From: Oligoflexales bacterium | GTDB lineage: Bacteria > Bdellovibrionota_B > Oligoflexia > Oligoflexales > Bog-1112 | Direction: 5' to 3' | DNA length: 44,373 nt | Assembly: GCA_013215275.1 (NCBI GenBank) | Contig: JABSRF010000007.1 | Coordinates: 1 to 44,373, forward strand | Shown: positions 8,541 through 25,101 of the stretch, piece after piece | Position numbering within the stretch: position 1 is the stretch's first letter | Layout: each line of letters starts with the position of its first letter | Program-made: the position numbers and the translations under genes | Notes under the pieces: model-generated | The model's input: only the letters and a program-made list of their open reading frames with translations | Told to the model about the DNA's origin: nothing | Databases searched by the model: none

Positions 8541-10205
8541 CTATAGGGATTCTCTGGATTTTCCAGGGTTATAATCGGCTTCAACCACAGCAACAATGAT
8601 TTCTGTCCCTGGTTTTGTTTCAGACGATTTTTCGTTTAATTCTGAAAGGCTAGAAATCGTTTTTAAGGATTGCTCAAATTTTGCTATCGTGTCGTAAGAG
8701 TCTGCCTCAACCCTTATTCGGATTTTTCCAGTCCCATCAGCTTTTGTCTCAAATCGGTATTCGACCATGTTGACCTGAACCTCTTTAGGAACCGCTTTGC
8801 TTAGGTCTTGCAATGCTACAAGTGCGCCGCTGTTAGAGTTAATGTCAATAAAGCCTTCAGTAGCGGCTTTTTTGCCACTGATTCGATCATTAAGTACAGT
8901 CTCAGCATTGTCCAACATGACGCTAAAACCATAGCGCCCGCTGCGGAGTTTCTTCTTTAGCTCAGGTGCTACTGAGAACAATTCTTTTTTATATACGGAT
9001 TGCAACTGCTCGATCTGCTTGCTGTAAGAAAAAAATTTGATTCCATAACTAAATGAAAGTAATAACAAAGCAACTGCTACGACCTTGAAAACAGCTCCTG
9101 CTGCTTTAAATACGGATTCATAATCTTGAACGTAAGCAAAGGGTCCTTTTCTTAGATTAATCTGAGAGTGTCTTTTTACAGAAGTTACAGCTCTGATACC
9201 GATAGAAATACTTTGTGACATGGAAGGCATCTGATCAGCAAGCTGGCTATTTATTTTTAGACTCGATTTCTCAAGACGGTTATGAACAGTTTCGACTTCT
9301 AGATTGGTTGTTAGATAGTGATCAAAATTTTTGATAACTGAAGAGCCACCGGATAAATAGATCCTCTCTATGGGGGACTTTTCCCAAGTTTTAAATGCGT
9401 AAAGGGTTCTTCCTAGCTCTTTTACGATTGCATTACTAGCAATGGTAATCCGGTCGGCAACTGTTCTATCTGCTGCTGACATTTCAGAACCTTGGTCTTG
9501 TTCTGTTAGCATCCTGCTAACACGGTGTTTGACTCTTTGAGCTTCGTTAAAGCTGACTTCCAAGTCACGGGCCAAAAACTCTGTGATATAACGTCCACCT
9601 AAGTTGATGGAGCGAAACATTCTTAAAACACCGTCTTGGACCAAGCAAACAGATGTTTTTTCATGGCCAACATCTACAAGGCCATAACATTTTCCTTCTT
9701 CCATTTCCAAATAAGGGCACAAGTTGTAAAATGCAAGGCTGTCCACATCAACAACTTTTGGATCAATGTCGATACGGTGAAGGTGCTCCAAAAAACTTGC
9801 AAGAAAAGCTTTTTTGGTCATGACAACTAGAGCAACAGTCTTTTGGCTCATTTGCCCAAGGATCTGATGGTCGACAATCATTTCGTCAAGATTAAAAGGA
9901 ACGGCATCCTCTATTTCTGCGAAAACTGCAGCTTCAATCTTGTGAGGGTCAGAGAAATTGAAAGGTAATATTCTACTCGAAATGTATTGACCTGGCATTG
10001 CAGTTACAATTCGGTCAGCTTTAATATCATTTTCTTGAAATAGTTGTTCCATACATGCTGGAAGCATGACATCTGGTGATAGTTCGTCAACTTGAGGAAT
10101 TACATTTTCATAGAAATTTGATATTTCATAAGATTTGTACTTATTGACTATTTCTACGGCCTTTATAGAGTAGCTACCAATATCAAGGCCGATAATCTTC
10201 TGCAT
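8541..10205 (-). CDS. gspL: Type II secretion protein GspL, PilM-like actin-fold form
   Basis: 554 aa. Residues 1-345 form a complete PilM/FtsA-type actin-like ATPase domain: the phosphate-1 loop GLDIGSYSIKAVE at residues 5-17, the central LVDVGHEKTSV motif and the adenosine motif IYLSGGSS. A TM helix at about 372-392 (VVAVALLLLSFSYGIKFF) leads to a periplasmic coiled coil and a ferredoxin-like domain as in PilN/GspL. It therefore equals PilM and PilN joined, which is what GspL is. The full actin-like ATP site is better preserved than in enterobacterial GspL, whose N-domain does not bind nucleotide in the known way. AAGGA lies six bases before the ATG. A 100-bp gap separates it from gspK. Confidence 0.9.
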   Translation of the reverse strand: MQKIIGLDIGSYSIKAVEIVNKYKSYEISNFYENVIPQVDELSPDVMLPACMEQLFQENDIKADRIVTAMPGQYISSRILPFNFSDPHKIEAAVFAEIEDAVPFNLDEMIVDHQILGQMSQKTVALVVMTKKAFLASFLEHLHRIDIDPKVVDVDSLAFYNLCPYLEMEEGKCYGLVDVGHEKTSVCLVQDGVLRMFRSINLGGRYITEFLARDLEVSFNEAQRVKHRVSRMLTEQDQGSEMSAADRTVADRITIASNAIVKELGRTLYAFKTWEKSPIERIYLSGGSSVIKNFDHYLTTNLEVETVHNRLEKSSLKINSQLADQMPSMSQSISIGIRAVTSVKRHSQINLRKGPFAYVQDYESVFKAAGAVFKVVAVALLLLSFSYGIKFFSYSKQIEQLQSVYKKELFSVAPELKKKLRSGRYGFSVMLDNAETVLNDRISGKKAATEGFIDINSNSGALVALQDLSKAVPKEVQVNMVEYRFETKADGTGKIRIRVEADSYDTIAKFEQSLKTISSLSELNEKSSETKPGTEIIVAVVEADYNPGKSRESL

Positions 10206-10305: not shown

Positions 10306-11655
10306 CTATGTAATTTTCCAATAAAGAATTTGGTAGGCACGTTTTACCTCTCGTTTCTCAACATCTGCACCTTTTACTCCACTATCTATACGCCTAATGA
10401 TAGCAGAAATTTTCCTTCGTTGGTGCCCGGTAAGAGCGTCCACAGTGATATTAAAGACATCTGATCTCACCACAAACCATTCTTCCTTCTTGCCCGCTTC
10501 AAACCCTTCATCTGCGGTATAACAGAATAAATCTTCGATCTTTGCTTTAATCTCTTTGTCGCTTGAGGCTAAATTACTAGCCTCCCCTTGGAGTTTGTGT
10601 ATTTTCTGAACAGACTTTTCTCGACATACTTCGTCTCTTGATTGAGGGATTAAGCAGGCAATAAGTTCCGAGGGGGCTGTGTTGATATTGATTCCAGCAA
10701 CGGAAACTTTCTTACCTCTTGCAGTTTTTTTGTTGGGCTTAAAGGGGTAAGTGGTCAAATAAGGAGCAAAAACTGCATGGATATCATCATCCCAACCCTT
10801 TACCATTTTCAATTCGCTAATTGAGTCGAAAGGGAGCCTCTTAGCTTTGTATGGTGGGGTGGCCTCCTCATAGGGTTCATCTTTGGAGCCTAAATTGCTT
10901 TCTTCAGAGGCCTGTTCATCGCTTGATATGTAATCACGAATCCTATAAGCAAGCTCCCTAGGGGATAGGTTTTTATTCTCTAGGAATAACTTTTCAGCTG
11001 GGCATGCGAAAAGCGCTTCTAGTTGTGCAATAACCTCAGGGCACTCCCTTGCAGGATCTCCAGAACCAGCACAATCATTGACATTAATCTTTTTGCTTTC
11101 GTCGAAGATCTTTACAGAAAACTGATCTTCAAATAAGCGCATCTGTGCCGCTACTTTTTCATTGAGTAGGCCTTTCAAGCCAAACGGGTCTTCATCACTT
11201 TCAGAACTAAGTAAGGGCTGAACGAAATTAAGAACTTCAGCTCCGAGTGGAGGCCATTGATTAAAAATTGTCCATAAGCTCGAAGGACCATCAACAGGTT
11301 CTTGTTTGATACCTAATGCACCACTTGCCTGCACATGATCCCAAAGGTAGCTAGCTGAAAGCAAATACAGGCCCAAATTGATTCCTGACTTTCCAAGGTA
11401 CTCTGACTTGACTCGATCCCTAGTCATTATTGCCAACTCAACATTAACCGTTGATGAAACGATCATCTCACTCACAAAGGTGATCATCACAGCTATGCTC
11501 ATGATCGCAATCAGCAGTGAGATCCCTTTCTGTTTGGTCTCTTTTGCCATGCTTCGATTTAAAAATTCATCTTTTTTTCGAAGTTCCCTAGGAGTGTGTA
11601 AGCAATAGCTCTTCTTAGAAATCCAATCAATGATATGTACGAGTTGCTTCCTCAT
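10306..11655 (-). CDS. gspK: Type II secretion minor pseudopilin GspK
   Basis: 449 aa, the largest pseudopilin, which caps the pseudopilus tip with GspI and GspJ. The prepilin motif is KQKG|ISLLIAIMSIAVM; position +5 lacks Glu, as is usual for GspK. The periplasmic domain contains KINVND and a helical insertion domain (about residues 200-300) typical of GspK, followed by INTAPSELIACL. The chosen ATG has AAGG seven bases upstream, overlapping the gspJ stop, but gives a leader of 44 residues; an ATG at 11550 would give an ordinary 9-residue leader. About eight Cys-containing segments suggest disulphide stabilisation. Confidence 0.9.
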   Translation of the reverse strand: MRKQLVHIIDWISKKSYCLHTPRELRKKDEFLNRSMAKETKQKGISLLIAIMSIAVMITFVSEMIVSSTVNVELAIMTRDRVKSEYLGKSGINLGLYLLSASYLWDHVQASGALGIKQEPVDGPSSLWTIFNQWPPLGAEVLNFVQPLLSSESDEDPFGLKGLLNEKVAAQMRLFEDQFSVKIFDESKKINVNDCAGSGDPARECPEVIAQLEALFACPAEKLFLENKNLSPRELAYRIRDYISSDEQASEESNLGSKDEPYEEATPPYKAKRLPFDSISELKMVKGWDDDIHAVFAPYLTTYPFKPNKKTARGKKVSVAGININTAPSELIACLIPQSRDEVCREKSVQKIHKLQGEASNLASSDKEIKAKIEDLFCYTADEGFEAGKKEEWFVVRSDVFNITVDALTGHQRRKISAIIRRIDSGVKGADVEKREVKRAYQILYWKIT

Positions 11656-11664
11656 GAATGGGCC

Positions 11665-12426
11665 TTATAGTTTCCAATTAAATGAGCTGTTTCTGCTCTT
11701 AAGCTCTTTAAAATCGAGAGCATAAGGTAAGTAAACGATGGTGCTATAATGAACTAAGCTTTCTTCAGACTCATCAGGCTCGATCCCCTCAATAGGGTCA
11801 TCAATCCAGGCGGTCATCTTAATCATCACCATATGAGGAAGTATTTTTTCGGTATCCCCTCTTCCCGAATCCCAGCCACTTTTAGACCAGTCATCGCCAT
11901 TCCACGGAAGAATTTCCAAGCTTTCGATATTTTTCACAAAAGCCCTCATAGGTGGGTCGTCTTTGAAGCGAAAGTCTTTTTCTGGGATTCTAAGTAATTC
12001 CCCTCGGTACAAGTCCTTACGATGTGGGAACTTGGGTGATGACTTTAGTTCATAAACCACATAGCTCAGGTCTGACTCCGGGCTATTTGCTTTGATGGAT
12101 TCATGACCCATATAAGTCATAGCCAGCCGGTCCCCTTTGGAGTTCTTTTTAATGGAAAAATGGGTACGGCTAACTCCATCTGTCCGATGAACCTGCCACC
12201 TTGGGTGAAGAAGAAAGGCATGACCTAAGTCGTAACTTATTTTTTGCATGGCTCGGTTAACCCGGTTGGTCACCTTATTTTTCTGAGAAAGCGCCACCTT
12301 CACATCAAAGGTGTTACGCATGAGGTTGGAAATAGCAAAGATAACGGCCACCAGAATCGCTAAGGTGATGACAACCTCTAGGAGGCTGAATGCTTGTTGG
12401 TTTTTTTTGTCAAAGTTTTCGCTCAT
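11665..12426 (-). CDS. gspJ: Type II secretion minor pseudopilin GspJ
   Basis: 253 aa. The N-terminal prepilin signal is short and polar, then QQA|FSLLEVVITLAILVAV. Position -1 is Ala rather than Gly, and +5 is the conserved Glu. The rest is the beta-rich globular domain of GspJ, with a WNGDDWSKSGWDSG region and a final strand VHYSTIVYLP. It joins GspI and GspK in the tip complex. It lies 24 bp after gspI and 9 bp before gspK. No strong SD was seen before the ATG. Confidence 0.88.
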   Translation of the reverse strand: MSENFDKKNQQAFSLLEVVITLAILVAVIFAISNLMRNTFDVKVALSQKNKVTNRVNRAMQKISYDLGHAFLLHPRWQVHRTDGVSRTHFSIKKNSKGDRLAMTYMGHESIKANSPESDLSYVVYELKSSPKFPHRKDLYRGELLRIPEKDFRFKDDPPMRAFVKNIESLEILPWNGDDWSKSGWDSGRGDTEKILPHMVMIKMTAWIDDPIEGIEPDESEESLVHYSTIVYLPYALDFKELKSRNSSFNWKL

Positions 12427-12450
12427 AAAGTAATCTACCGATTCCCGTTA

Positions 12451-13194
12451 TCAAGGGTTTGGCGGGGTTCCGCCTCCAGCTCCACTCGTACCACCAGCTC
12501 CTCCAGTACCACCGGCTCCTCCAGTACCACCGGCTCCTCCAGTACCGCTAGATCCTGACGGTTTCTTAGGTGGTTTCTTCTGTGGCTCAGGCTCAGCAGC
12601 GATAGGCTTTTGAATAAAAATCTGCTCGTCTAATTGTTTTTGATTGGCCATAAGGTAGGCAAGTTCAACGCTGTTCCGTTTGCTACCTTCAGGCCAATGC
12701 ACCTCAACGAAGGCTACTTTTAACAGCTCTTCTCCCAAAAAATTCTTAATGGCAGATTCTATGGTCGAGCTAAGCCCTCCTTCATCTCCTCCGTCTTCGC
12801 CGCCACCACCACCTAGCTGGCCTGCAATAAGGTTGACCAACGGGAGGGGGAACTCCTCAATTTTAAGGTCATATTTGAAAGGACACTCTCCATATTTTGG
12901 GTCTTTTGGGCACATGTCCTCACTAAACTCAAGCTCTTTCGAATCTAGCTTAATGTCTTTAAAGTCATAATAAGATGCATACCACTCCACCTTAGACATC
13001 ACTGCTTGGGCAAGCCAAGTCGCTTGGGATGAGTAACGATTATACTCCCCGAAATTGATGCTTTTTCCTTGGATAGAGCTCACTTCCAAGATGACGGTCA
13101 CCATGAGGCCAAGCGCAATGACAGTTTCAAGCAAAGTAAAACTGGCTTCCTGTCCACGCTTTCTTATTCGTTTAGATTTATTAGAATGCATCAT
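12451..13194 (-). CDS. gspI: Type II secretion minor pseudopilin GspI with Gly-rich repeat tail
   Basis: Pseudopilin with the motif RGQEAS|FTLLETVIALGLM: Glu at +5 but Ser at -1 in place of the usual Gly. The core pseudopilin domain ends at about residue 190 of the protein (VELAYLMANQ). An extra low-complexity tail follows: a Pro/Lys-rich linker, then a Gly/Thr/Ala run made by an 18-bp tandem repeat, ending in PPNP. Canonical GspI is about 125 aa, so this one is nearly twice as long. An open frame extends to an ATG at 13251, inside gspH. The ATG at 13194 is preferred because it gives a normal-length leader and a 14-bp overlap with gspH, but this choice is not certain. Confidence 0.85.
   Translation of the reverse strand: MMHSNKSKRIRKRGQEASFTLLETVIALGLMVTVILEVSSIQGKSINFGEYNRYSSQATWLAQAVMSKVEWYASYYDFKDIKLDSKELEFSEDMCPKDPKYGECPFKYDLKIEEFPLPLVNLIAGQLGGGGGEDGGDEGGLSSTIESAIKNFLGEELLKVAFVEVHWPEGSKRNSVELAYLMANQKQLDEQIFIQKPIAAEPEPQKKPPKKPSGSSGTGGAGGTGGAGGTGGAGGTSGAGGGTPPNP
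12491..12544. repeat. Tandem repeat, three 18-bp units, inside gspI
   Basis: Three back-to-back 18-bp units, CCACCGGCTCCTCCAGTA on the plus strand, the first differing by one base; degenerate half units flank them. Each unit encodes six residues (Gly-Gly-Thr-Gly-Gly-Ala, cyclic), forming the flexible C-terminal tail of GspI. The unit keeps the reading frame, so copy-number change would only alter tail length. Confidence 0.9.
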
Positions 13195-14032
13195 CTTTTT
13201 CGCTAAAAATGTCGATCTCTTCGAAGCCAACCCTAACCTCTGCATAGCCATCGTAAGGGTGTACTAAGATGGTGTATGGAGTTTGATCAGGGTCAACCTC
13301 ACCTTTTTCCTTTTGATAAAACACATGCAAGACTGTTTTTTCCACATAACCTTGAGGAAGAAAGTAAATCATCCCAACCACGTTAGGACCATCTTCTAAA
13401 CTGACAGGCTGCTGGTGGTGCGTGGTTTGTAGGTCTCTAACCATGAGGAAAGGCCCAATTCTGCGCCCAGCCCACTCCAAACTATCGAGCTTTTCCCAAA
13501 TAGGACCCCTTAACTTTTCTTTGGCTTTGATGACTGGGGAGAATACAGGGATGTCCTCTTCACCTGTTTCTGGGTTAGGCACCGACTCACCGACGATATC
13601 TTCATAGCGTTGGAAATCTTCATCAAAAAAAAGCATGCGTTGTTTCTCATCTTCAGGCAGAGGGTCGGCTCTAATTGCTTCATTGCCTATTTTTATTTGA
13701 TGGGAAACAGAAGACTCTTCTTTTGTTGTTTCAAGCCAGTATTCGCCATCATAAAGCTTGAAAACGAGCCTGAGTGGTCTACCAGTTAAAACGGAGTAAT
13801 CATAGGCGGAACGGATGTCTTCGGCGAATTGCCCTAGCTTACTTGCGACCTCATTTCCGGTCTTCAAGTTGAAGTTAGGGATTGCGACTCCGTAAACAAA
13901 CGCAACCAAGCCGATTACGATGATCACCTCGAGGAGGGTAAAACCTTTTGCATTGTTTTTAGGGCGCTCAAGCGGGTTCATCTGATCTTTCGGATGAAGC
14001 AAGGCCCAATCAAACTGGTCAAATACCATCAT
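13181..14032 (-). CDS. gspH: Type II secretion minor pseudopilin GspH
   Basis: About 283 aa, longer than typical GspH (about 170). The prepilin motif NNAKG|FTLLEVIIVIGLVAF is canonical, with Gly at -1 and Glu at +5. The periplasmic part begins with the helix-to-sheet transition of GspH/FimT (EDIRSAYDYSVLTGRPLRLVF) and carries a long insert (about residues 110-170) rich in acidic residues. The downstream ATG at 13981 would give a 12-residue leader instead of 29; neither start has a clear SD. The gene sits 57 bp after gspG and overlaps gspI. It probably links the GspG shaft to the I-J-K tip. Confidence 0.87.
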   Translation of the reverse strand: MMVFDQFDWALLHPKDQMNPLERPKNNAKGFTLLEVIIVIGLVAFVYGVAIPNFNLKTGNEVASKLGQFAEDIRSAYDYSVLTGRPLRLVFKLYDGEYWLETTKEESSVSHQIKIGNEAIRADPLPEDEKQRMLFFDEDFQRYEDIVGESVPNPETGEEDIPVFSPVIKAKEKLRGPIWEKLDSLEWAGRRIGPFLMVRDLQTTHHQQPVSLEDGPNVVGMIYFLPQGYVEKTVLHVFYQKEKGEVDPDQTPYTILVHPYDGYAEVRVGFEEIDIFSEKDDAF

Positions 14033-14089: not shown

Positions 14090-14572
14090 CTACTGCTGTT
14101 CATCAGTCTCCCTTTCTGGGTAATGAATGTCCATTTCTGTGCCAAAGTTGCTATCAGCCCCTGCAGAGATGATCTCATACTTACGTCCATCTGAGGTGTA
14201 ATCATATGCATTGCCCCAAGGGTCTTTGAGCTTTTCTTTCTCGATGTAGGGGCCTCTCCATCTTTTGCTTTCTCCTGGATCGCTAAGGAGTGAGTCCAAG
14301 CCTTGGGCTGTGGTAGGGTATTTATTATTATGCACTCGATAGAGCTGAAGCGCCTGTGCAATACCACCCATCGCAATGCGTGCCTGATCTTCTTTCGCTT
14401 TTTCAGAAGTGTCTGAAAGGTTGGTTACTAGAATCGTCATCAAGGTGCCTAGGAGTGCGATCACGATGATGATCTCAATTAAGGTCATACCTTTTTGACC
14501 ATCTTCTTTCTCACTTTGTGGCCCTAGGGCTAGGTGCTTAGCTTTTCTCCAGTAAGTTGCAAAGATTGCCAT
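14090..14572 (-). CDS. gspG: Major pseudopilin GspG
   Basis: Main subunit of the T2SS pseudopilus. The motif QKG|MTLIEIIIVIALLG has Gly at -1 and Glu at +5; +1 is Met instead of Phe. The C-terminal half shows the GspG hallmarks: YRVHNNKYPTTAQGL, then LKDPWGNAYDY and the calcium-binding loop SAGADSNFG. The ATG at 14572 has GGAG six bases upstream and gives a 28-residue leader, longer than usual; an ATG at 14593 is less well supported. It is 48 bp downstream of gspF. The assignment is unambiguous. Confidence 0.95.
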   Translation of the reverse strand: MAIFATYWRKAKHLALGPQSEKEDGQKGMTLIEIIIVIALLGTLMTILVTNLSDTSEKAKEDQARIAMGGIAQALQLYRVHNNKYPTTAQGLDSLLSDPGESKRWRGPYIEKEKLKDPWGNAYDYTSDGRKYEIISAGADSNFGTEMDIHYPERETDEQQ

Positions 14573-14620
14573 ATAATTCTCCACTTTCCCCAAATTAGAG
14601 TAAACATTTCGTCACTATTA

Positions 14621-15856
14621 TTAACGCACTTGATTCATAACCGAAAGCATAGGAATGAGCAAAGCCATAACCACACCGACAACAATGACACCCATGACTA
14701 TAATCATCAAAGGTTCGATGAGAGAAATCAAAGAATCAATCTTCCTCTCAACCTCGGCATCATAGGCATCTGCTACATGGCGAAGCATTTGCTCTAGCTC
14801 ACCAGTTCTTTCGCCAGTACGAATCATATAAGTGACAAGCGCAGGGAAGCGTTTGCTTCGATCTATGGGAACCCATAGAGCCTCCCCCTCTTGCACTGCT
14901 ATTTTAGATTCCTCTAGCACATTGGCAATGAGAGAATTATTTATAATGTTCTTTGTGATTTCGAGTGCAGCAATAATCGGCACACCACTGCTTAGCAGGG
15001 TTGAGAGCGTCTTCGTGAATTTAGAAACATTTACCCTAAGAACCACATCCCCGAGAATCGGTGCCTGCAAAGACATTCGGTCGGCGAGGTTTTTTCCTTT
15101 TTCAGTTTTGTACCAAGAGGCCAGCAAGAAATAAAGTCCGCCCATTCCAATGAGAACGAGAACCCATTGGTTTTGTAAGAATTTAGAGAAGTCCATGACT
15201 AACTTTGTGAAAGGCGGTAGGGTTACCCTCAGGCTTATGAATACTTTTTCAAGCTTGGGCACCACACTGATAAAAAGGTAGCCGATAATCCCAAGAGAGG
15301 CTGTGATCATTAACGCCGGATAAGTCAGAGCACTAAAAATCTTTCCGCGTATAGCCACCTGGTACTCTAAGAAGTCAGCGAGCCTTTCGAGCACGAGACC
15401 AAGGTTTCCCGAAGACTCCCCTGCTTTAACCATATTTATGTACAGTCTACTAAAAACTCGGGGGTGCCCATTCATATGCATGGCTTCCGCTAGGGATTTA
15501 CCCTCTGAGACGGACCCCTTGACGGCCGACAAAGTATTGCTTAACAGCCGATTTTCAACTTGGTTGGTAAGGGCCACCAAGCACTCGTCGAGTGGGACGT
15601 GTGCTCGCTGTAAGGTTGCAAATTGCCTAGTCATAATTGACAATTCAGGTAGGGTGACCTTTTCTTGGCGAAGTGTGAAGCTGGCTCCTGATTTGTCACC
15701 TTTTTTGATGGCCACCTCTTCTTTTATCTCAGAGGCGATCACCTTATCTTTAGACCGTAATTTTTGTCTTGCAGACCTAAGGGAGTCGGCTTCAATCTTC
15801 CCTTTGCGGTTTGCACCGGTTTTTATGTCATAGCCTTTATAGAGGTATATAGGCAA
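14621..15856 (-). CDS. gspF: Inner-membrane platform protein GspF
   Basis: 411 aa polytopic membrane protein that transmits ATPase movement to the pseudopilus. Two homologous GspF domains (about residues 75-200 and 280-400) each end in a membrane region; strong TM stretches are ALTYPALMITASLGIIGYLF and MIIVMGVIVVGVVMALL. The ATG expected here is replaced by TTG at 15856, with AAGGAG six bases upstream, so the TTG start is well supported. It follows gspE by 41 bp. The length (about 405 aa) and motifs match the family. Confidence 0.95.
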   Translation of the reverse strand: MPIYLYKGYDIKTGANRKGKIEADSLRSARQKLRSKDKVIASEIKEEVAIKKGDKSGASFTLRQEKVTLPELSIMTRQFATLQRAHVPLDECLVALTNQVENRLLSNTLSAVKGSVSEGKSLAEAMHMNGHPRVFSRLYINMVKAGESSGNLGLVLERLADFLEYQVAIRGKIFSALTYPALMITASLGIIGYLFISVVPKLEKVFISLRVTLPPFTKLVMDFSKFLQNQWVLVLIGMGGLYFLLASWYKTEKGKNLADRMSLQAPILGDVVLRVNVSKFTKTLSTLLSSGVPIIAALEITKNIINNSLIANVLEESKIAVQEGEALWVPIDRSKRFPALVTYMIRTGERTGELEQMLRHVADAYDAEVERKIDSLISLIEPLMIIVMGVIVVGVVMALLIPMLSVMNQVR

Positions 15857-15897: not shown

Positions 15898-17712
15898 CTA
15901 TTCCATATCCTCAGTCTGGGTTTTCTGAATGGCTTCTTCGATGGAGGTGATGCCTTCCAAAACTTTGGAGATAGCAGATTGACGGAGAGTCTTCATGCCA
16001 TTTTCGACAGCTTGCTTGCGAATCATATTTGCATCCTGAGTTTTTAGGATTAATTCCTTGAGCTTTTCATCCATGACGAGTAGCTCGTGAATTCCGGCTC
16101 TATCTTTGTAACCCTGATTATGGCACTGGTCACAGCCTTTACCTGCCTTGTAAATCTCTTTGCCGACGACGTCTTCTGGGGTCAGATCCATAAGCTTTAG
16201 CTCACGATCACTGGGGGTGTGCTTCACCCGGCAGTGAACACATAAGCGTCTTATCAAACGAGTCGCCATCACTCCTAAAACCGCAGAAGCAATCTGGAAG
16301 GGCTGAATATTCAGGTCATCCAGTCGCGTAATGGTCGAAGCAGCATCGTTTGTATGCAAAGTAGAGAATACCAAGTGACCCGTTAGGGAAGACTGAACCG
16401 CAATATTTGCCGTTTCTTCATCCCTAATCTCACCAATCATTATAACATCTGGGTCCTGGCGAAGAATAGCCCGCAGCCCTTCACTAAAAGTCAGGCCGAT
16501 TTTTGACTTCACATCAATTTGGCCAATACCTGGTAGCCTATATTCCACAGGATCTTCAATAGTCAGGATATTGATATCAGTGGTGTTGATGTTGGTGATG
16601 GATGAATAAAGCAAGGTTGTTTTACCGGAACCAGTCGGTCCCGTTACCAAAATAATGCCATGTTTTTGGGCGATTAGATTTGTCCAGGAACGGTAAATAT
16701 CTTGGTGTAGCCCCATTTGATCGAGTCGCTTGACTCCGGCTGATTTGTCAAGGATACGCATGACCACCCGCTCTCCAAGGGCTGTGGGGAGAACTGAAAG
16801 ACGCACATCAGCGTCCTTACCCGCAACCTTAATGCTGATACGGCCATCCTGCGGTACCCTTTTTTCGGCAATGTTTAACTTGCCGATAATCTTGATCCTC
16901 GAGACGACAGAGCCAAGGTGGCGTTTATTTAGCTGCATGGTATCGTGGAGCGTGCCATCAATTCTAAAGCGCACGACTATTTCAGTTTCGTAAGGCTCGA
17001 TATGAATATCAGAAGCTCGCTCTTTAACAGCTCGAGAGAGGAGCCCGTTTACCAAACGAATGATTGGCTTTTCATCATCAGAAGACTCAAGAAGGTCCCT
17101 TGTTTCTTCAAGGTCGTCTTCTTCTCCACTTCCGATTTCAGGAACATTGAGCTCGTCGATGACTTTTTGGGAAGCGTCGTTTGAACGTTCATAAACCCTG
17201 TTAATCGAGTGGTTTATAACCGAAGGCGAACAAACGATCATATTGATATTGGTGGACAAGATCAAACGTAGATCGTCCATCGGAAAAATATTCAAGGGAT
17301 CAGCAACTGCAACGGTGACATTAAAATCATCCCGTGCAATGGGGAGGATTAAGTTGTCCCGAGCGAACTGAATGGGGATATTGTCCACCAACGAGGGATC
17401 GATGTCATTGATCGGAAGCTTCTCGTAGTAAGGCAGGTCAAGCTGGTAGGCAAGAGCCTTCAGCATATCTTCTTCACTGATGTACTCTTTATCTACGAGA
17501 ATTTCACCAAGCTTACGCTTTTCGGAACCCTCACCTTGGAAGCTTAGTGCTTCCTTCAGCTGATCTTCAGTAAGCGCAGAGGATTCAATGAGAATCTCAC
17601 CGAGTGACTTACGCTTTGTCTTGCGAAAAGTTGCTGAAGGGAGTTCGTGCCATTTCGTGGTCTCGGGGGGTGTGCTGACATCCCGTGCTAATTGATCGTT
17701 TTGATCACTCAT
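15898..17712 (-). CDS. gspE: Type II secretion ATPase GspE
   Basis: 604 aa hexameric cytoplasmic ATPase. Residues 35-100 carry the MshEN-like N1 domain with two LGEIL(I/V) repeats, which in MshE binds c-di-GMP; whether binding occurs here is unknown. Then come the N2 domain (about 100-340), Walker A GPTGSGKTT (358-366), the Asp box (IEDPVEY), Walker B DVIMIGEIRDEE (422-433), the His box GHLVFSTLHTNDA, and the zinc-binding tetracysteine motif CVHC/CDQC (Cys491, 494, 527, 530). The start is supported by GAGG six bases upstream. It overlaps the end of gspD1 by 8 bp, indicating translational coupling. Confidence 0.97.
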   Translation of the reverse strand: MSDQNDQLARDVSTPPETTKWHELPSATFRKTKRKSLGEILIESSALTEDQLKEALSFQGEGSEKRKLGEILVDKEYISEEDMLKALAYQLDLPYYEKLPINDIDPSLVDNIPIQFARDNLILPIARDDFNVTVAVADPLNIFPMDDLRLILSTNINMIVCSPSVINHSINRVYERSNDASQKVIDELNVPEIGSGEEDDLEETRDLLESSDDEKPIIRLVNGLLSRAVKERASDIHIEPYETEIVVRFRIDGTLHDTMQLNKRHLGSVVSRIKIIGKLNIAEKRVPQDGRISIKVAGKDADVRLSVLPTALGERVVMRILDKSAGVKRLDQMGLHQDIYRSWTNLIAQKHGIILVTGPTGSGKTTLLYSSITNINTTDINILTIEDPVEYRLPGIGQIDVKSKIGLTFSEGLRAILRQDPDVIMIGEIRDEETANIAVQSSLTGHLVFSTLHTNDAASTITRLDDLNIQPFQIASAVLGVMATRLIRRLCVHCRVKHTPSDRELKLMDLTPEDVVGKEIYKAGKGCDQCHNQGYKDRAGIHELLVMDEKLKELILKTQDANMIRKQAVENGMKTLRQSAISKVLEGITSIEEAIQKTQTEDME

Positions 17713-20098
17713 TCAAATCCTCGCCAGGTTGTGAATCATTAAAGCCACCTGATGCCTCTGATGGTGGAGGAGGTGGTGATGCTGGCCCATCAAAACCTCC
17801 ATCGTCTCCCCCTGCAGGGACAGGGATGGTTGTCTCTAAATCTCTTTTAGTCGGGGCAGGGGCCTGCTCATTAAGTCTACCTCCATTTCCTACCCCTTCA
17901 TAACCAATTGCTTTATAGACTCCTTGCCTTTGATTTTCACGAATTTTTTCTTCAGCAGCGTCTACAGGGGTTGGCTTATACTCTCCATCCTCTGGGCGAG
18001 GAAGGGCTTGATAGAAGTCGGAGTCTTGGTAGCCTGATCCATAAACGTCTTCCATAAAGGTATCACGCTCTTTGAGCTTGGCTTGATAGATAGCTGCTAA
18101 GTCATTAGCCCCATGCACTATGTGAGGGGTTAGGAATATTGCTAAGTTACTTTTTTCTGACTTCGTTTGTGAGTTCCTGAATAGCCACCCGAGGATAGGA
18201 ATATCTCCTAGAAGTGGAATTTTTCTGAAGCTTTCGAACTCCCTGTTTTGAACGAGGCCGGACACGACAATTGTTTGACCATTTTTGACGGTAACTATTT
18301 GCTTGGTTTTTCTTTTATTCACTCTAGGAAGGCCGTCCTCGTTTATAGAGGCAATTGAGTTGGACTCCAAAGAGAGGTCGATCGTCACATAATTAGAGTG
18401 ACTGATGTTTGGTTTGATGGTGAGAGACAGGTCCACATCCTCTTTTTCAACCTTGGTGGTTGCCGCACCAGTGGTAGGGTTAGTGGTTGAGGACCTAAAG
18501 AAGACTTTTTCCCCTACAGAGATTGCGGCTTCTTCATTGTTTGATGTCAGGATATGAGGTGACGCTAAGGTTCGAGTGTTAGCGTCAGCTTTGAGCAGAT
18601 TGATGAGGGCTCCAGGTCTGAAGGTCCCTAGACCGGGTACATTGACATCCTGACCAGACAGGATACCGATAGCCATATTGCTTGAGAATGCTTGTGCAAC
18701 CTGTTGGGTATTGCTACTAGTCGCGTTTGGAGTGACCTGAGAGACAATCAGTGGTGCCATGCCCCCGGCTTCCCAGGCTGTCACACCCTTAGTGCCTCCT
18801 TCTCCAGCTCCACCAAATCCACCGAAAATTGAGGTGTTGAAAAGAAAGTCGTTGCCTTCGTTGATATCCAAGATATCAGCTTCAATAAATACTTGGCTTC
18901 TTCTGACATCTAACTTGCGGATGATTGAGTTGAGTGCATCATACGCAGAACGATTACCGGTTATCAGAAGGGAGTTAGACGCTTCGTCGGCAGTAATTTT
19001 AACTCCATCCCCCAAATCAGCAACACTTGTGGTTCCCCCAGGGGTATTATTTTTGCGGTTGGTCCTTTTGGTTGGTGGCCTTCTGAGTGTGCTGCTGCTA
19101 CGTGAACTGTTCGTTAAAGACGATAGGGTGCCAGCTAACTTTTTCGCATCAGCATAATCAAGTGGCCTGACATGTATGGATGCTTGGGCCGTTGGGTCAT
19201 CGAGAGGGATGTCGAATTTTTTCACTAGAGCTCGGATATCTTGGATGGTGCGCGGTGGCCCGAAGATAATCACAGAGTTTGAACGCTCATCAATAAGAAT
19301 CTTAAATGAGTGATAGGCACTTCGAGTTCTTTTTTTACTGGAAGAACTTGTGCTTGAACGTAGGATTTCATTTACTTTATCAGCAATGCTTTTTGGGTCT
19401 GAGTACTTGATGGGAACAATTAACACCTTTGGTTGTTGTGTTTGAACATCGAGAAGCTCCAGGACTTCAAGGACCCTCCTGACTTTGTAACCACTCTCAC
19501 TGATGATAAGGGTGTTTGTGGGTTCATAAGCAATCATCGAATTTGTTGAAACGATACGGGATAAGGTTGTCTGAACTTGTTTGGCGTCAATATACTTTAA
19601 AGGAATAATTTGAGTGATAATCTCATCGGTACGAGGAGCCCAACTAGAGCCAAGATAGGTCTTTAAATTTCCTTTTACTGCGTTTCTGACCTTCATAACT
19701 TTTATCACCTTACCAGTTTCAACTGTGGTCAGGTTGAGCATGTTTAAGGCAGATAGGAAAGCTTGGTATGCTTCTTCCTTAGTCACTTTCTTCGGAGAAA
19801 TAATTTGAACCTTTCCAGTGACATTTCGGTCAAGGATAACATTTTTACCGGTCCATAGAGCCACTGCTTTGATGATATCTTTGATGTCTGTGAGTTCGGG
19901 GAAGTCCATATTGACCAGCTCTCGCCCTTCTGGGATCGAAGCTGCACCTTTAGTGCTTGTGGCAGGAGCCTTGGGTGTATTCTGGGCTAAGCTTGGAGAG
20001 GATGGTTTTGCGCTTTGCCCCAAAGCAATGCTGCTTGCAAACAACAAAAACATTTGCAAGTAAAAAGATAACTTAAATCCTCTGCTAACAATCTTCAC
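17705..20098 (-). CDS. gspD: Type II secretin GspD, copy 1
   Basis: About 797 aa outer-membrane secretin. A signal peptide (KLSFYLQMFLLFASSIALG) precedes N0 (about 60-150), N1-N3 with Ser/Thr/Arg-rich linkers, and the C-terminal secretin domain with VPGLGTFRPGALINLL, LASPHIL, EKVFFR, the NGQTIVVSGL strand and IPLLGDIPILGWLF. The protein ends in a disordered Gly/Pro tail with a PPPPP run. The preferred start is GTG at 20098, which has GGGGGA about eight bases upstream; the open frame reaches a GTG at 20113 without an SD. It lies 228 bp after a second complete secretin gene and overlaps gspE. No lipobox, so it may need no pilotin or a non-lipid-based route; that is inference. Confidence 0.96.
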   Translation of the reverse strand: MKIVSRGFKLSFYLQMFLLFASSIALGQSAKPSSPSLAQNTPKAPATSTKGAASIPEGRELVNMDFPELTDIKDIIKAVALWTGKNVILDRNVTGKVQIISPKKVTKEEAYQAFLSALNMLNLTTVETGKVIKVMKVRNAVKGNLKTYLGSSWAPRTDEIITQIIPLKYIDAKQVQTTLSRIVSTNSMIAYEPTNTLIISESGYKVRRVLEVLELLDVQTQQPKVLIVPIKYSDPKSIADKVNEILRSSTSSSSKKRTRSAYHSFKILIDERSNSVIIFGPPRTIQDIRALVKKFDIPLDDPTAQASIHVRPLDYADAKKLAGTLSSLTNSSRSSSTLRRPPTKRTNRKNNTPGGTTSVADLGDGVKITADEASNSLLITGNRSAYDALNSIIRKLDVRRSQVFIEADILDINEGNDFLFNTSIFGGFGGAGEGGTKGVTAWEAGGMAPLIVSQVTPNATSSNTQQVAQAFSSNMAIGILSGQDVNVPGLGTFRPGALINLLKADANTRTLASPHILTSNNEEAAISVGEKVFFRSSTTNPTTGAATTKVEKEDVDLSLTIKPNISHSNYVTIDLSLESNSIASINEDGLPRVNKRKTKQIVTVKNGQTIVVSGLVQNREFESFRKIPLLGDIPILGWLFRNSQTKSEKSNLAIFLTPHIVHGANDLAAIYQAKLKERDTFMEDVYGSGYQDSDFYQALPRPEDGEYKPTPVDAAEEKIRENQRQGVYKAIGYEGVGNGGRLNEQAPAPTKRDLETTIPVPAGGDDGGFDGPASPPPPPSEASGGFNDSQPGEDLNE

Positions 20099-20113
20099 AA
20101 GTAGTTCCCCCAC

Positions 20114-20341
20114 AGTAAATTTGGGACTTCATCTCTATAACACCATCAACACAACAAGTAGAAAGTACCCGTACCATCATAAGCGGCTGGGATAAAAGCC
20201 CAGGTAAAAGCTATTTGTATCCCATGCAATTAAATGTTTCACCCTGTAAACTAATAATTATTGAACTTCCTGCACCTCTTGTGCTTTGGAATCTTCGTAC
20301 TGATCCCCTTGTCTAGTCCCCGGTTCGGAAAAAATAGAGCT
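20114..20341 (-). other. Intra-operon gap with hairpin between the two secretin genes
   Basis: This is the longest gap in the T2SS operon (228 bp). In the transcribed sense it holds CCTGGG-CTTTTAT-CCCAG (around 20187-20204) capable of a short GC-rich hairpin, preceded by ACAGGG and followed by GCCGC and a GGTACGGGTAC element. A structured leader or an internal promoter that sets expression of gspD1 and downstream genes is possible. No riboswitch family can be named with confidence. Confidence 0.35.
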
Positions 20342-22378
20342 TTAATTAGTTTGATCCTTTTGTGCCTTACTCAAAAAAAAGTTCGTTTCCTTAAGTTTAT
20401 CCTGGTATATGCGCTGAAGGTCAGAAGCTTCATGAATGACATAAGGGGTGAGAAAAATAGCAAGTTGCTTTGTTTTTGTCACCTTTACGTTGTTTCGAAA
20501 TAGATGGCCAATGATCGGGATGTCACCTAAGAATGGAATTTTACTGGTAGCTTCCGATTCAATGATGTTTTTTAGCCCTGCAATAACAGCAGTTTGACCA
20601 TTTCTTAGGAAGATGGACTGCTTAATCTTTTTATGGCTTACCTGAGGAAGCCCGAAGCTAAAGCCGGAGAGCTCAGTTGCGTCGAGCATGAGGGTCAGGC
20701 TGAGGTCATTATTGCCACTGATTTTTGGGTGGATCGTCAAACTCATTTCGATGTTTTCTTTTTCTACATTTGTACGGGTTGTCCCCAAGCTATCTGTGTC
20801 AGAATTGCGAAAAAATATCGTTTCCCCGGCAGATAGGCTAGCTTCTGTATTATCTACTGTTAGGATATAAGGAGAAGATAAGACCCGAGTGTCGGAGTCG
20901 GATTTTAATAAACGAATCAAAGCTCCTGGGGTAATGGTTCCAAGACCTGGTACTTCTACTCCCTTTCCTGACAGAGCTGCAATGTTTAATCCTTCATTCG
21001 TCGCTGAGGTAAATTGCTGGGCTCGAACCCCCTGAGAGGTCGATAAAGCATCTGAGCTAGCTAATATCAGTGGAGCCATTGCTCCTGCTTGCCAAGCAGT
21101 GATGATATCAGTGCTACCAGCACTTCCTGCAAAAATGGAGGTTCCTACGGTAAAGGTATGGTCTGTTCCTATTTCGAGAACTTCAGCTTCAATCAGAATT
21201 TGGCTTTTGCGTTTGTCTAACTTTTGAATGATGTAGTCAACATCATGAAACTCACTCCTGGTACCAGCTACAATGATGGAGTTTGAGGGTTCGTCTGCTG
21301 TAATCTTTAATTGGCTGTTGTTATTGGTGTAGGCATTTGCTTTTTGCCGGTTTGCCAAAGATAGTGCGTTTAAAACTACAGCAAGCTTTTTTGCGTCAGC
21401 AAATTCGATGGGGCGCAAGTGAATGCGAGACTCTCCCGCTTCCATCTTTGGGGCTAGGTCTAGGGAGCGTGCAAACTGCTCTATCCTTTTTAGCATCACT
21501 GGTGGAGCCATTAAGACCAATAGGCCGTTGGCATCGAGTCCCAAAACCTTGAAGCTTTTTTTTGCTTTAGACTTCTTACTTTTTGCGCTTGATGCCTCAA
21601 TAGCCGAAAATTCTTTAAGCTTTTTGGCGATATCGGATGGTAAGGCATGCTTTATTGCGATCATTTTAAGGCTTGGTTGCTGGGACCCGACATCCAAAAA
21701 AGAAATGATGTCTAGGATACGTTCAATCTTCTTAGCGCTATCGGTAATGATGAGGGTGTTGGTATTTTCAATAGCGATCATGGACCGGGGGGTCGCAAAG
21801 CGAGAGAGGGATGCAAGGATCCATTTTGCCCGGATATACCTCAACGGGAGCACTTGAGTGACTAGCTCATCGGAACCTGGCAGCTCCTGTGATGGACGGT
21901 ATATTGGAGAGCTGCTTTTCATGCCTTCAGTGGTTTTCATGATCTTCACCACTTTTCCGGTCTCAATGGTGCTAAGGCCCAGCATGTCGAGTGAAGATAG
22001 AAATGTTTTGTAAGCGTCTTCTGGGCTTAGTTTTTCTGGGGCTATGATCTTAATCTTTCCCTTAACTTTCTGATCCCAGATAAAGTTTTTTTTGGTCCAG
22101 CGTGCAACTTCATCGGCAATGACTTGGATATCAGTCATTTCCGGGTAGTGGATGCTTACAAGATTCTTTTTGGGGCTTTTCTTTTTCGGGGTAGGAATAG
22201 CCTTTTCAGCTTGTGATTCAGCCTGGGGTTCTTCCTTTGAAATTGGGCCAATAGGCTCTGCTGGTGGTAAGTCCGCAGCATGAGCAGATTCGTTTCTAAG
22301 ATTCCCACAGAGGATTAACAGTGCAAGGCTCAAAAATATTATCAAGTTCTTCACCATGCTGGTGAGCTTGCAGCACAA
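20342..22378 (-). CDS. gspD: Type II secretin GspD, copy 2
   Basis: About 678 aa and clearly homologous to the adjacent secretin along its full length: the N0 start (HYPEMTDIQVIADEVARWT), the IETGKVVKIMK segment, N1-N3, and a complete secretin domain (VPGLGTITPGALIRLL, LSSPYIL, ETIFFR, IPFLGDIPIIGHLF, FLTPYVI). It lacks the Pro-rich tail of copy 1 and has shorter linkers. The chosen start is TTG at 22378 because GGAGG lies seven bases upstream; an in-frame ATG at 22357 begins the hydrophobic signal (NLIIFLSLALLILCG) but lacks an SD. Nothing suggests decay: no frameshift, and the key Gly and Pro residues of the barrel lip are kept. See the findings for what two secretins may mean. Confidence 0.95.
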   Translation of the reverse strand: MCCKLTSMVKNLIIFLSLALLILCGNLRNESAHAADLPPAEPIGPISKEEPQAESQAEKAIPTPKKKSPKKNLVSIHYPEMTDIQVIADEVARWTKKNFIWDQKVKGKIKIIAPEKLSPEDAYKTFLSSLDMLGLSTIETGKVVKIMKTTEGMKSSSPIYRPSQELPGSDELVTQVLPLRYIRAKWILASLSRFATPRSMIAIENTNTLIITDSAKKIERILDIISFLDVGSQQPSLKMIAIKHALPSDIAKKLKEFSAIEASSAKSKKSKAKKSFKVLGLDANGLLVLMAPPVMLKRIEQFARSLDLAPKMEAGESRIHLRPIEFADAKKLAVVLNALSLANRQKANAYTNNNSQLKITADEPSNSIIVAGTRSEFHDVDYIIQKLDKRKSQILIEAEVLEIGTDHTFTVGTSIFAGSAGSTDIITAWQAGAMAPLILASSDALSTSQGVRAQQFTSATNEGLNIAALSGKGVEVPGLGTITPGALIRLLKSDSDTRVLSSPYILTVDNTEASLSAGETIFFRNSDTDSLGTTRTNVEKENIEMSLTIHPKISGNNDLSLTLMLDATELSGFSFGLPQVSHKKIKQSIFLRNGQTAVIAGLKNIIESEATSKIPFLGDIPIIGHLFRNNVKVTKTKQLAIFLTPYVIHEASDLQRIYQDKLKETNFFLSKAQKDQTN

Positions 22379-22436
22379 AATATGACCTCCAGAAGATGGA
22401 TAAGGCAATCAGCCTGCTAATCGGTTTGACAACCGT

Positions 22437-23429
22437 TTATTTAATGCGAGCATGCAAGGTTTTGGGTGTTTTTCCTTGCCTTAAGACACGAATGGTGATG
22501 TCACGCTCGTCAAGCAGAGCTTGGTATAAGGCGAAGCCTTGCTCGGCTTCCATGACCGTATCGTTTACTTGGGTGATCACATCACCATTTTGCAAGCCAA
22601 TCTTGTCGAGAAGAGTATTTTTTTGAATTGCAAAAATTTTAAACCCATTCACCCGGTTTTCTACTGTGTTAGGCACCAGCCTTGCAGATTGAATGATCTT
22701 CCCGAAACCATCTCCTAACTCGCTCTCCACAAATGAAGCCTGTAAAAGGACACTTCCCCCTTCAACCTCTTCCACAGCCGGAGAGTTGTCTCTATTTTCA
22801 TCAAATAGAGAGCCCCTGTCGCTTTCAGCGACCTTAATCTCAAGGCATTCTTTATTGCCAGAATTGTTTATGATTACCCGGTTGCGCTCAATACTGACGA
22901 TCAGAGCATCGTCCATTCCAATGATGGCATCACCAGCTTTATAGATATCGGCCTCATCGAAGCCTGCCTCTTTTATGGTGGCCATTGAGTTTTTTTCGAT
23001 CCCCAAGAAGATTGTCCCAATTAGGCTGAGCTTAAGCTTGCTTGGGACACAGGGGGCGGATTCATCAAAATCCTCTTTTTTCTTTTCCACAGCAGCTTGT
23101 TCTGCTTTGCTCGACTCGTCGGGAAGCTCTCCATCTAGATTGAATAGATTACGCTCGAGGATTTGTTTTTTCACGCTGTGAAAATTTGGCCTTCCTTGCA
23201 GGTTAACGGGCGGTGCAGAGACCGCAGCTTTCGATATTTTGTATTTGCCAACTGAATCCATGATAAAGGGAATCATAAAAGCGCCAACGGCACTAGCACT
23301 GATATAAGACGTGAACAGAACGCCAGAAGATATCATGGCATGTTTCATGAAGCCTTCTAAGGACTTTCCCAGGCCTCCTGAACGTCTGCTGCTTTTTGGG
23401 TCTAATAGTGCTTTAAATTTTTCAAACAT
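22437..23429 (-). CDS. gspC: Type II secretion protein GspC, copy 2
   Basis: 330 aa bitopic protein that links the inner-membrane platform to the secretin. A TM helix (about residues 30-56) is followed by a Pro/Ser-rich linker, the homology region (HR) beta domain (about 128-200, SKLKLSLIGTIFLG), a linker, and a C-terminal PDZ domain (about 240-330) with DKIGLQNGDVITQVN. HR binds secretin N0, and the PDZ domain is linked to substrate choice in known systems. The cytoplasmic N-terminus of about 30 residues is basic. It starts 4 bp after the stop of the other gspC. Divergent from copy 1 except in the HR and PDZ core motifs. Confidence 0.93.
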   Translation of the reverse strand: MFEKFKALLDPKSSRRSGGLGKSLEGFMKHAMISSGVLFTSYISASAVGAFMIPFIMDSVGKYKISKAAVSAPPVNLQGRPNFHSVKKQILERNLFNLDGELPDESSKAEQAAVEKKKEDFDESAPCVPSKLKLSLIGTIFLGIEKNSMATIKEAGFDEADIYKAGDAIIGMDDALIVSIERNRVIINNSGNKECLEIKVAESDRGSLFDENRDNSPAVEEVEGGSVLLQASFVESELGDGFGKIIQSARLVPNTVENRVNGFKIFAIQKNTLLDKIGLQNGDVITQVNDTVMEAEQGFALYQALLDERDITIRVLRQGKTPKTLHARIK

Positions 23430-23433
23430 GGAT

Positions 23434-24420
23434 CTACCGAACCTGTAAGTTTATAGTTTGGACAACCCCACCTCTTTCAAGTCTTACCTCCAAATCATTT
23501 TCCCCACGCAGTGAGTTGAGTAGCTTGATCGCTTGGGCCGTATCGACAAGGGAAACCCCATTGATTTCTTTAACAACATCGCCGTTCTGGAGCCCTGCTT
23601 TTTGATAGATAGAGTCCTCGCGAATTCGAGTTAGCCTGAATCCACTTAACTCTCCTCCTACCAGGTGAGGCTCTGCTTTGGCATCTTGAAGAATCTTGGC
23701 AAAATCTGAAGTAAGCAGTTTTCGGCGAAAATCCGAAGACATGGTGATGGCATTGCCTTGGCGTTCAAAGCCTTCTTCCTTATAAGCCTCGGGAGGAGGT
23801 TCGGTAGCATATATTTTTTTAGAAGCAGGTCTAGCAGACCCAGAAGATTTCTTTCGACGTTTGCTGACGAGCTGCTTCCTTTCGAGCTCGATGTACTCCC
23901 GGTGATCGCCGCGATCTATGATAACCTTCTCTCGATGGATCTCGATGATTTTTGCGTTCTGGGTCAGCAAGTCACCTACAAAAAAACTGTTCTGGTTTCG
24001 TTTAGAGGTGTTCTCGATCAGTGCGATGCCTGAGTATGGGTCTCCACCGTATATAGTGCCCAGAAGTTTTAGGGGAAGGGTGGATTTTATGGCCTTTGTT
24101 CCTGAGTAAACCTGCTGCTCTGCAGCGGGCTCTACAGCGTCTTCCTCGCCTGTTTTACCTTCTTTATTGAATAGGTTCCTGCCGACAATCTCATCGATTC
24201 CCTGGTTGCCTAAACTTGGCTTAGGTTTTTGAATGGGAGCCACATTACGAGCCTTTGGAACGATCTCAAGGTCTTTTTTATCCGGAAATAACAGATGGTT
24301 GGATAAAAGGCTAACGCCGGTAGCTCCGAGGAAGCCGATAGCAACAGATCCAAACATCCCTTTCCAGGGAAGCTTTTTTGCTTTATCAAGCTCTATCAGA
24401 ATGGCGTTGAGGTTAAGCAT
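23434..24420 (-). CDS. gspC: Type II secretion protein GspC, copy 1
   Basis: 328 aa with the same plan as copy 2: TM helix (about residues 20-45), HR domain (about 115-180, STLPLKLLGTIYGG), a basic linker with RRKKSSG, and PDZ (about 250-328, QKAGLQNGDVVKEING). The motif NLFN before the HR domain is shared by both copies. The start at 24420 is chosen because AAGGA lies six bases before this ATG; the open frame extends ten codons further without an SD. It follows aroK by 48 bp. HR and PDZ are complete, so both GspC copies should be functional clamp proteins. Confidence 0.94.
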   Translation of the reverse strand: MLNLNAILIELDKAKKLPWKGMFGSVAIGFLGATGVSLLSNHLLFPDKKDLEIVPKARNVAPIQKPKPSLGNQGIDEIVGRNLFNKEGKTGEEDAVEPAAEQQVYSGTKAIKSTLPLKLLGTIYGGDPYSGIALIENTSKRNQNSFFVGDLLTQNAKIIEIHREKVIIDRGDHREYIELERKQLVSKRRKKSSGSARPASKKIYATEPPPEAYKEEGFERQGNAITMSSDFRRKLLTSDFAKILQDAKAEPHLVGGELSGFRLTRIREDSIYQKAGLQNGDVVKEINGVSLVDTAQAIKLLNSLRGENDLEVRLERGGVVQTINLQVR

Positions 24421-24468
24421 AGCTTGTCCTTGAGTTTGCTGGTCATCCACAAATATGGTGGCTGCAAT

Positions 24469-25101
24469 TTATCTTTTCGCATTTTTTTTGAGCAGTTTTT
24501 GCCCCTCTTTACCTTCGAGTAATTGCTTGATCCGATTTGCTGCTTCATCGTTGGTTGCAAAACTATCGTTAAAGCATAGATGAGAGTGCTCAAAACCCTC
24601 ACGTCTGTCCTGCAATTGGCTCGTCAGTCTATCCACTAAAAGCTGCTCTCGTTCACTGGTGTCTGCGACACCTGCTATATCGGATAGAAGAGGGCGTTTC
24701 TTCAGCTCCTCTGGGTGGGAAGCAAAGCGCTTAGCAATGGCATTAGGGGAAACCTGTAGCCAAACTGTGACTCCAAGGCCATCGATCAATTCCCAGTTTT
24801 GCTCTGCTTGCATGGCCCCACCGCCCAGTGATATGACTTGGCTGACTGCTGATTTGATGGATGAAAGGGCTTCGGTTTCTTTTTTTCTGAAATAGGCTTC
24901 CCCGTGATCCTTAAATATTCTTGGGATGGTTTTTTTTTCTGATTTTTCGATCCAGTCGTCTAAATCCAGGTATCCGAACCCTAATCGCCGAGCGAGTTGC
25001 TTTCCAATTGCTGTTTTTCCGCTGCCGCAAATACCTGTTAATATGATGTTTTTGAAGTTCTTTGGTAATCTTTCGGACTTTTCTTTGCCATATAATATCA
25101 T
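24469..25101 (-). CDS. aroK: Shikimate kinase AroK
   Basis: 210 aa cytosolic enzyme that phosphorylates shikimate at O3 in the chorismate pathway. The P-loop is GICGSGKTAIG, the shikimate-binding Asp lies in GYLDLDDWIE, followed by GEAYFRKKE and the SLGGGA motif; RPLLSD forms the lid region. The C-terminus is about 30 residues longer than typical (about 175 aa) and strongly basic. It is the first gene of the T2SS transcription unit, a position that recalls the pilMNOPQ-aroK operons of gammaproteobacteria, where it also lies beside a secretin gene. A TATAAT box lies upstream at 25198-25203 without a good -35 match. Confidence 0.93.
   Translation of the reverse strand: MILYGKEKSERLPKNFKNIILTGICGSGKTAIGKQLARRLGFGYLDLDDWIEKSEKKTIPRIFKDHGEAYFRKKETEALSSIKSAVSQVISLGGGAMQAEQNWELIDGLGVTVWLQVSPNAIAKRFASHPEELKKRPLLSDIAGVADTSEREQLLVDRLTSQLQDRREGFEHSHLCFNDSFATNDEAANRIKQLLEGKEGQKLLKKNAKR

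Follow-up and report, generated by a model that had tools for sequence, protein, structure and literature searches.

The canonical type II secretion systems (T2SS), such as Pul of Klebsiella, Out of Dickeya and Eps of Vibrio, are encoded in the order gspC-D-E...N, with a GspC built of a transmembrane (TM) helix, an HR domain and a PDZ domain, and a secretin, GspD, with N0-N3 domains. GspC connects the inner membrane with the outer-membrane channel, which is a ring of 15 GspD subunits; its N-terminus binds GspL/M and its HR binds N0. In Klebsiella the PulC:E:L:M:N stoichiometry is 2:1:1:1:1, which was taken to mean 12 PulC in each hexameric platform, and the HR domains bind N0 singly, leaving about three of 15 N0 free in the model (PMC6882859); a Xanthomonas model with six XpsC speaks against the 12-copy count (PMC11981180). 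In the ETEC complex, Thr20 of GspD is buried and Asn24 hydrogen-bonds GspC (PMC3169554). Additional partners are described in a few systems. In Pseudomonas aeruginosa, XphA/XqhA (PaQa) is a second GspC/GspD pair that works with Xcp and lies outside the xcp locus (cited in PMC6567927). In Dickeya, GspB/OutB adds another HR-domain protein to the secretin N0 that GspC binds; its HR shares 10-17% identity with other HR domains, and the protein has a cell-wall-binding C-terminal region (PMC9239104). The mitochondrial T2SS of eukaryotes combines two GspD-type secretins with separate N-domain proteins (GspDN), and GspC was not found there (PMC10128026).

We analysed a 44,373-nucleotide stretch of an Oligoflexales genome (the window), whose minus strand carries a T2SS operon in the order aroK-gspC1-gspC2-gspD2-gspD1-gspE-F-G-H-I-J-K-L-probable gspM-gspN. 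The shikimate kinase gene aroK (24469..25101; Pfam SKI, E=7.9e-35), the 5' neighbour of gspC1 in almost every Oligoflexales locus, is followed by gspC1 (23434..24420; 328 aa from the ATG at 24420, in an ORF that opens with the GTG at 24450) and gspC2 (22437..23429; 330 aa). The two secretin genes come next: gspD2 (20342..22378), encoding 678 aa from a TTG after GGAGG, with an alternative ATG at 22357, and gspD1 (17705..20113; 802 aa from a GTG), which encodes the main secretin found throughout the class. The start of the ATPase gene gspE (15898..17712; Pfam T2SSE, E=1.2e-135) overlaps the stop of gspD1, and downstream are gspF (14621..15856; Pfam T2SSF), gspG for the major pseudopilin (14090..14593; Pfam T2SSG) and the minor pseudopilin genes gspH, gspI, gspJ and gspK (10306..14032). 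The bases for these four calls differ: gspJ and gspK were assigned by Pfam, gspI from position and synteny only, and gspH had an NCBIfam GspH score of 33.9 bits, under the cut-off of 80. The operon closes with a gspL-like gene (8541..10205; PilM_2 and a weak PilN match), a probable gspM (7887..8531), called from position, size and a single TM with no NCBIfam match, and gspN (6945..7874; NCBIfam T2SS_GspN_Lepto, 115.8 bits, cut-off 50). Each gene from gspE to gspN is present once in the operon. A genome-wide profile search found no third T2SSC match, and of four Secretin matches the two outside the window have no convincing GspD N0.

All four duplicated genes have open, full-length frames, with 27% identity between GspC1 and GspC2 and 40% between GspD1 and GspD2. 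Both GspC proteins passed the Pfam T2SSC (HR) cut-off of 27 (48.6 bits for C1 and 38.2 for C2) and had weaker PDZ matches, near or at the cut-off; against NCBIfam GspC_delta, with a cut-off of 150, they scored 150.0 and 140.1 bits, respectively. Pfam recognised GspD N0, three Secretin_N stretches and Secretin in each of D1 and D2, and both passed the cut-off of 351.35 for the NCBIfam GspD equivalog TIGR02517, with 443.7 and 356.1 bits. The initial annotation had reported two intact gspC and two intact gspD genes in C-C-D-D order between aroK and gspE with a single set of E-N, all four with their diagnostic domains, and a Pro/Gly-rich tail on one secretin only. All of this is borne out, the tail belonging to D1. 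The window's genome assembly consists of 710 contigs, so a misassembled or chimeric contig may be thought of; because the order C1-C2-D2-D1-E is identical in all seven other assemblies of the family, which come from different projects, assembly error can be practically dismissed. Compared with the canonical T2SS, the locus has the same single gspE-gspN set, N0-N3 secretin, TM-HR-PDZ GspC and gene order, and differs in that Oligoflexia has two gspC throughout the class and a second gspD in one family.

Corresponding loci from 40 members of the order and from class and outside relatives were collected and their genes mapped. Of 58 Oligoflexia genomes, which belong to Oligoflexales and Silvanigrellales, 57 have the gspC1-gspC2 tandem, in almost every case beside a single gspD; the remaining genome (G011), 87% complete, had no C1, C2 or N0 matches. 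Gene order in Oligoflexales is aroK-C1-C2-D-E-F-G-H-I-J-K-L with almost no exceptions; the sister families within the class have C1-C2-D-E and lack aroK there. Named genomes were scanned with D1 as query. The scan covered MAGs of Oligoflexales, some of which bear the label Pseudobacteriovorax or Oligoflexus, as well as Silvanigrellales, with Fluviispira multicolorata and Spirobacillus cienkowskii among them; C1-C2 was present in all Oligoflexia loci whose contig spans the region. Among the Oligoflexia genomes surveyed, we saw no loss of C1 or C2 where the T2SS exists. Outgroup loci, from Bdellovibrionota, Myxococcota and others, had one full gspC wherever gspC was in view, and 88 Bdellovibrionota genomes showed no two full gspC in tandem.

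In a tree of 22 C1, 22 C2 and 12 outgroup GspC sequences, C1 and C2 each formed a clade (both 100/99) and the outgroups stood apart (98/93). Each clade holds a Silvanigrellales part and an Oligoflexales part, which places one gspC duplication before the split of the two orders. From tree and distribution, C1 and C2 are the products of an old duplication of which both copies have been kept ever since. Myxococcota T2SS loci likewise have a second GspC-like gene beside gspC, but unlike in Oligoflexia it is sporadic (5/58 genomes; among them L207, L208, L210 and L211) and the second copy is sometimes without HR. One of these copies is nearly identical in its PDZ to the neighbouring gspC, and the Myxococcota tandems are apparently separate and recent events. 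The Myxococcota genome G198 has, by eye, an apparent N0-PDZ fusion without HR between gspC and gspD (L209:1397-2215), in which the N0-like part precedes a PDZ of the GspC type.

GspC1 has TM, HR and PDZ parts, its membrane helix being recognised by sequence inspection only. The C2 model (pLDDT 79) has a long N-terminal helix, with the membrane helix at residues 20-61, a six-strand HR and a PDZ. In the fold search with this model the PDZ resembled that of EpsC, and among the best matches the PDZ alone was matched, with the HR unmatched. The C2 HR lies between Cys127 and Cys195 (window numbering), and every one of the 52 C2 sequences with data has both cysteines; none of 52 C1 sequences and no outgroup carries Cys in these columns. 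Silvanigrellales C1 also has two Cys, close to these positions but offset from them. The C2 pair would likely form a disulfide that staples the HR. Many Oligoflexales genomes also encode a solitary GspC1-like HR-PDZ protein of 228-319 aa outside the T2SS operon, with a signal-peptide-like start (L196:835-1653, L197:4367-5179, L198:4720-5532, L199:4545-5231, L200:4468-5151, L201:3926-4882, L202:3315-4013, L203:4443-5285); none was found in the window's own genome.

The C-terminal tail of GspD1 (17705-18050 in the window) is kept across the class, with a conserved Phe-Tyr-x-x-Leu-Pro and a Pro/Gly-rich end; it might serve to contact a pilotin or the cell wall. In the D1 N0, the position equivalent to Thr20 is Ala or Thr in 48/48 Oligoflexia sequences, and the position equivalent to Asn24 is Trp in 48/48 vs 1/11 outgroups; the GspC-contact positions of N0 also vary among the outgroup secretins. 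At matched barrel identity, N0 was more conserved in Oligoflexia D1 than in the single-GspC outgroups (61.6 vs 42.0% and 71.4 vs 45.4%), the excess being 20-26 points at 35-55% barrel identity, 10 at 55-65% and none above, and all of it coming from one clade. Such conservation would fit a single N0 that has to accept two HR partners.

The gene gspD2 was found between C2 and D1 only in the family of the window, in 8/8 genomes of seven genera. Its open frame has 630-678 codons in seven of them and 579 in the eighth, which is rich in indels. D2 has no C-terminal tail and its within-family identity is 30% vs 56% for D1; by domain, the D1/D2 values are 70/30% for N0, 69/24% for N1, 61/17% for N2, 62/29% for N3 and 52/30% for the barrel. 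The position equivalent to Thr20 is E, E, H, Q, V, I, A and L across the eight sequences, and that equivalent to Asn24 is Trp in only 4/8. In the D2 model the full set of secretin domains is present, with PulD (6hcg) as best match followed by other T2SS secretins; we used the monomer model for domain presence only, the packing of its domains not being meaningful (low TM-scores). On these sequences, the D2 N0 is one with a changed contact face, and D2 is not thereby excluded from the GspD family.

In the secretin tree the D2 sequences cluster together (88/80) and join the D1 of the same family (90/97), on end branches of 1.3-3.4 vs 0.2-1.0 for that D1, and these long branches weaken the inference of origin. 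The AU test did not reject an origin of D2 older than the order (p-AU 0.276) and was borderline for one older than the class (p-AU 0.049). The distribution favours an origin within the family, as a copy of GspD1, with a date that is not firm. A genome of another family, f6 (G024), has an extra T2SS-type secretin, Dx, far from the operon (L189:8897-10897); it is tail-less, keeps the N0 contact residues and sits within the GspD1 clade of f6. By its placement, Dx is a second, separate gain of an extra secretin. There are also free-standing small N0-domain proteins of the GspD type with no evident signal peptide, at L192:1585-1983 (contig C689 of the window's genome), L193:2919-3332, L194:4349-4621, L190:4334-4675 and L195:4114-4515; at four loci their common neighbours are a lipoprotein-like protein and a protein of 232-261 aa. 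Two GspD-type secretins together with free-standing N-domain proteins are a likeness between Oligoflexales and the mitochondrial T2SS.

The initial annotation had also proposed that there may be two matched C/D pairs, which would share one ATPase and pseudopilus and form two channels for different cargo, or else a mixed secretin ring. The pairs would be C1 with D1 and C2 with D2. D2 does adjoin C2, and XphA/XqhA likewise adds a GspC and a GspD to one ATPase and pseudopilus, but there the two form a pair outside the main locus, whereas the extra C and D of the window lie in the operon and have unlinked distributions. An XphA/XqhA-like second CD pair was rejected, C2 being class-wide and D2 confined to the family, so that the two do not travel together. 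About 49 Oligoflexia genomes have C2 with only one operon gspD, and C2 therefore cannot depend on D2. The C2HR/C1HR distance ratio was 0.83 within the family, and the 228 matched pairs from outside it gave 0.83 as well, so the C2 HR shows no acceleration in the family that has D2; D2 N0 has not kept the GspC-contact residues that are invariant in D1. A mirror-tree check of HR-N0 coevolution on seven taxa, of low power, gave partial correlations of 0.11-0.21, none significant, with none seen for C2 HR against D2 N0. Matched pairs thus find no support here, and we regard this reading as very improbable. What does stand of the earlier proposal is that duplication of a single CD module fails to explain the order: gene order is against it, and the C duplication predates the split of the orders while D2 is limited to one family. 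Judged in this way, the C-C-D-D order is the outcome of two separate events, not of two C/D pairs; the order also held in relatives as the annotation had proposed to check, with C1-C2 class-wide and C-C-D-D in every genome of the family. Nor was the claim of novelty overturned, for the literature searched on two gspC or two gspD per T2SS and on T2SS in Oligoflexia or Silvanigrella did not describe the arrangement, which is weak evidence with few subscription papers covered.

The main rival concerns C2, which might act as a scaffold like GspB/OutB, its HR holding and guiding the secretin, with the secretion work left to C1. The HR of OutB and OutC are reported on the same N0, with OutB binding tighter (~10 uM vs 1 mM; PMC9239104), and the fixed Cys pair of C2 could make its HR rigid and tight-binding. 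Against this role, C2 is a true GspC paralogue within the GspC tree, has a PDZ where OutB has its cell-wall-binding region, and ends at the PDZ without such an extra part; we consider the role unlikely, and on the same features an identification of C2 as GspB itself was rejected. For D2, decay under relaxed selection with no role left would agree with the low within-family identity, branches several times longer than those of D1, the lost tail and N0 contact residues, and the loss of the usual terminal barrel motif in D2 of G007. The gene is nevertheless open and at the same site in all eight genomes, its N0-N3 and barrel are recognised by profiles, and D2 of the window exceeds the equivalog cut-off, so that decay is quite improbable; the dN/dS comparison of D2 with D1 in the sole same-genus pair (G003/G006) was unusable, with saturated synonymous sites and indels in G006. 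D2 may instead be a minority subunit of the GspD1 ring, for example at N0 positions without GspC, such as the three among 15 that the model for Klebsiella leaves free. D1 partners could supply the missing contact residues and tail, and Dx, gained separately, is likewise tail-less; however, Dx retains its contact residues, and a barrel identity of 30% for D2 vs 52% for D1 is odd for subunits that share an interface. This placement of D2 is conceivable but somewhat doubtful. Its combination with an obligate C1+C2 cage, one each per GspL/M unit and 12 in total, in which D2 of a mosaic GspD1/tail-less GspD2 ring takes the GspC-free positions in one family, seems unlikely.

The reading we prefer, and hold to be moderately probable, is one T2SS in which C1 and C2 share the platform and the N0 ring of GspD1 as 6+6, with the later D2 as an accessory secretin. 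The gspC gene duplicated in the ancestor of Oligoflexia, with both copies retained in the same order, and C1 and C2 would most likely stand in one inner-membrane platform, both touching the N0 ring of GspD1. Two obligate gspC beside a single L, a single M and one main D agree with the view of two GspC per unit, so C1 and C2 could fill the two GspC slots of each GspL/GspM unit, and from this we infer a hetero-GspC cage of six C1 and six C2. The sporadic Myxococcota tandems, some without HR, indicate that a tandem need not imply such a fixed two-slot cage. One family would later have gained GspD2, copied from GspD1, which kept the secretin fold, dropped the tail, altered its GspC-contact face and diverged fast. 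GspD2 would then be an accessory secretin and not the partner of C2; it could be the minor component of a mixed ring or form an alternative, second channel.

Oligoflexia has a class-wide T2SS with two GspC, and one family a second secretin, both conserved and without description in the literature searched. GspC and GspD functions have been split repeatedly, in the solitary HR-PDZ proteins, the N0-only proteins and the tail-less second secretins, which suggests that the interface between the two is easily rewired. The number of GspC copies per T2SS is unsettled, with 12 from the Klebsiella stoichiometry and six in the Xanthomonas model. In Oligoflexia GspC has been two genes since the class ancestor, and each copy can be tagged, counted and deleted, which would give a direct test of the copy number; cultured members of the class, Fluviispira and Silvanigrella, are available for it.
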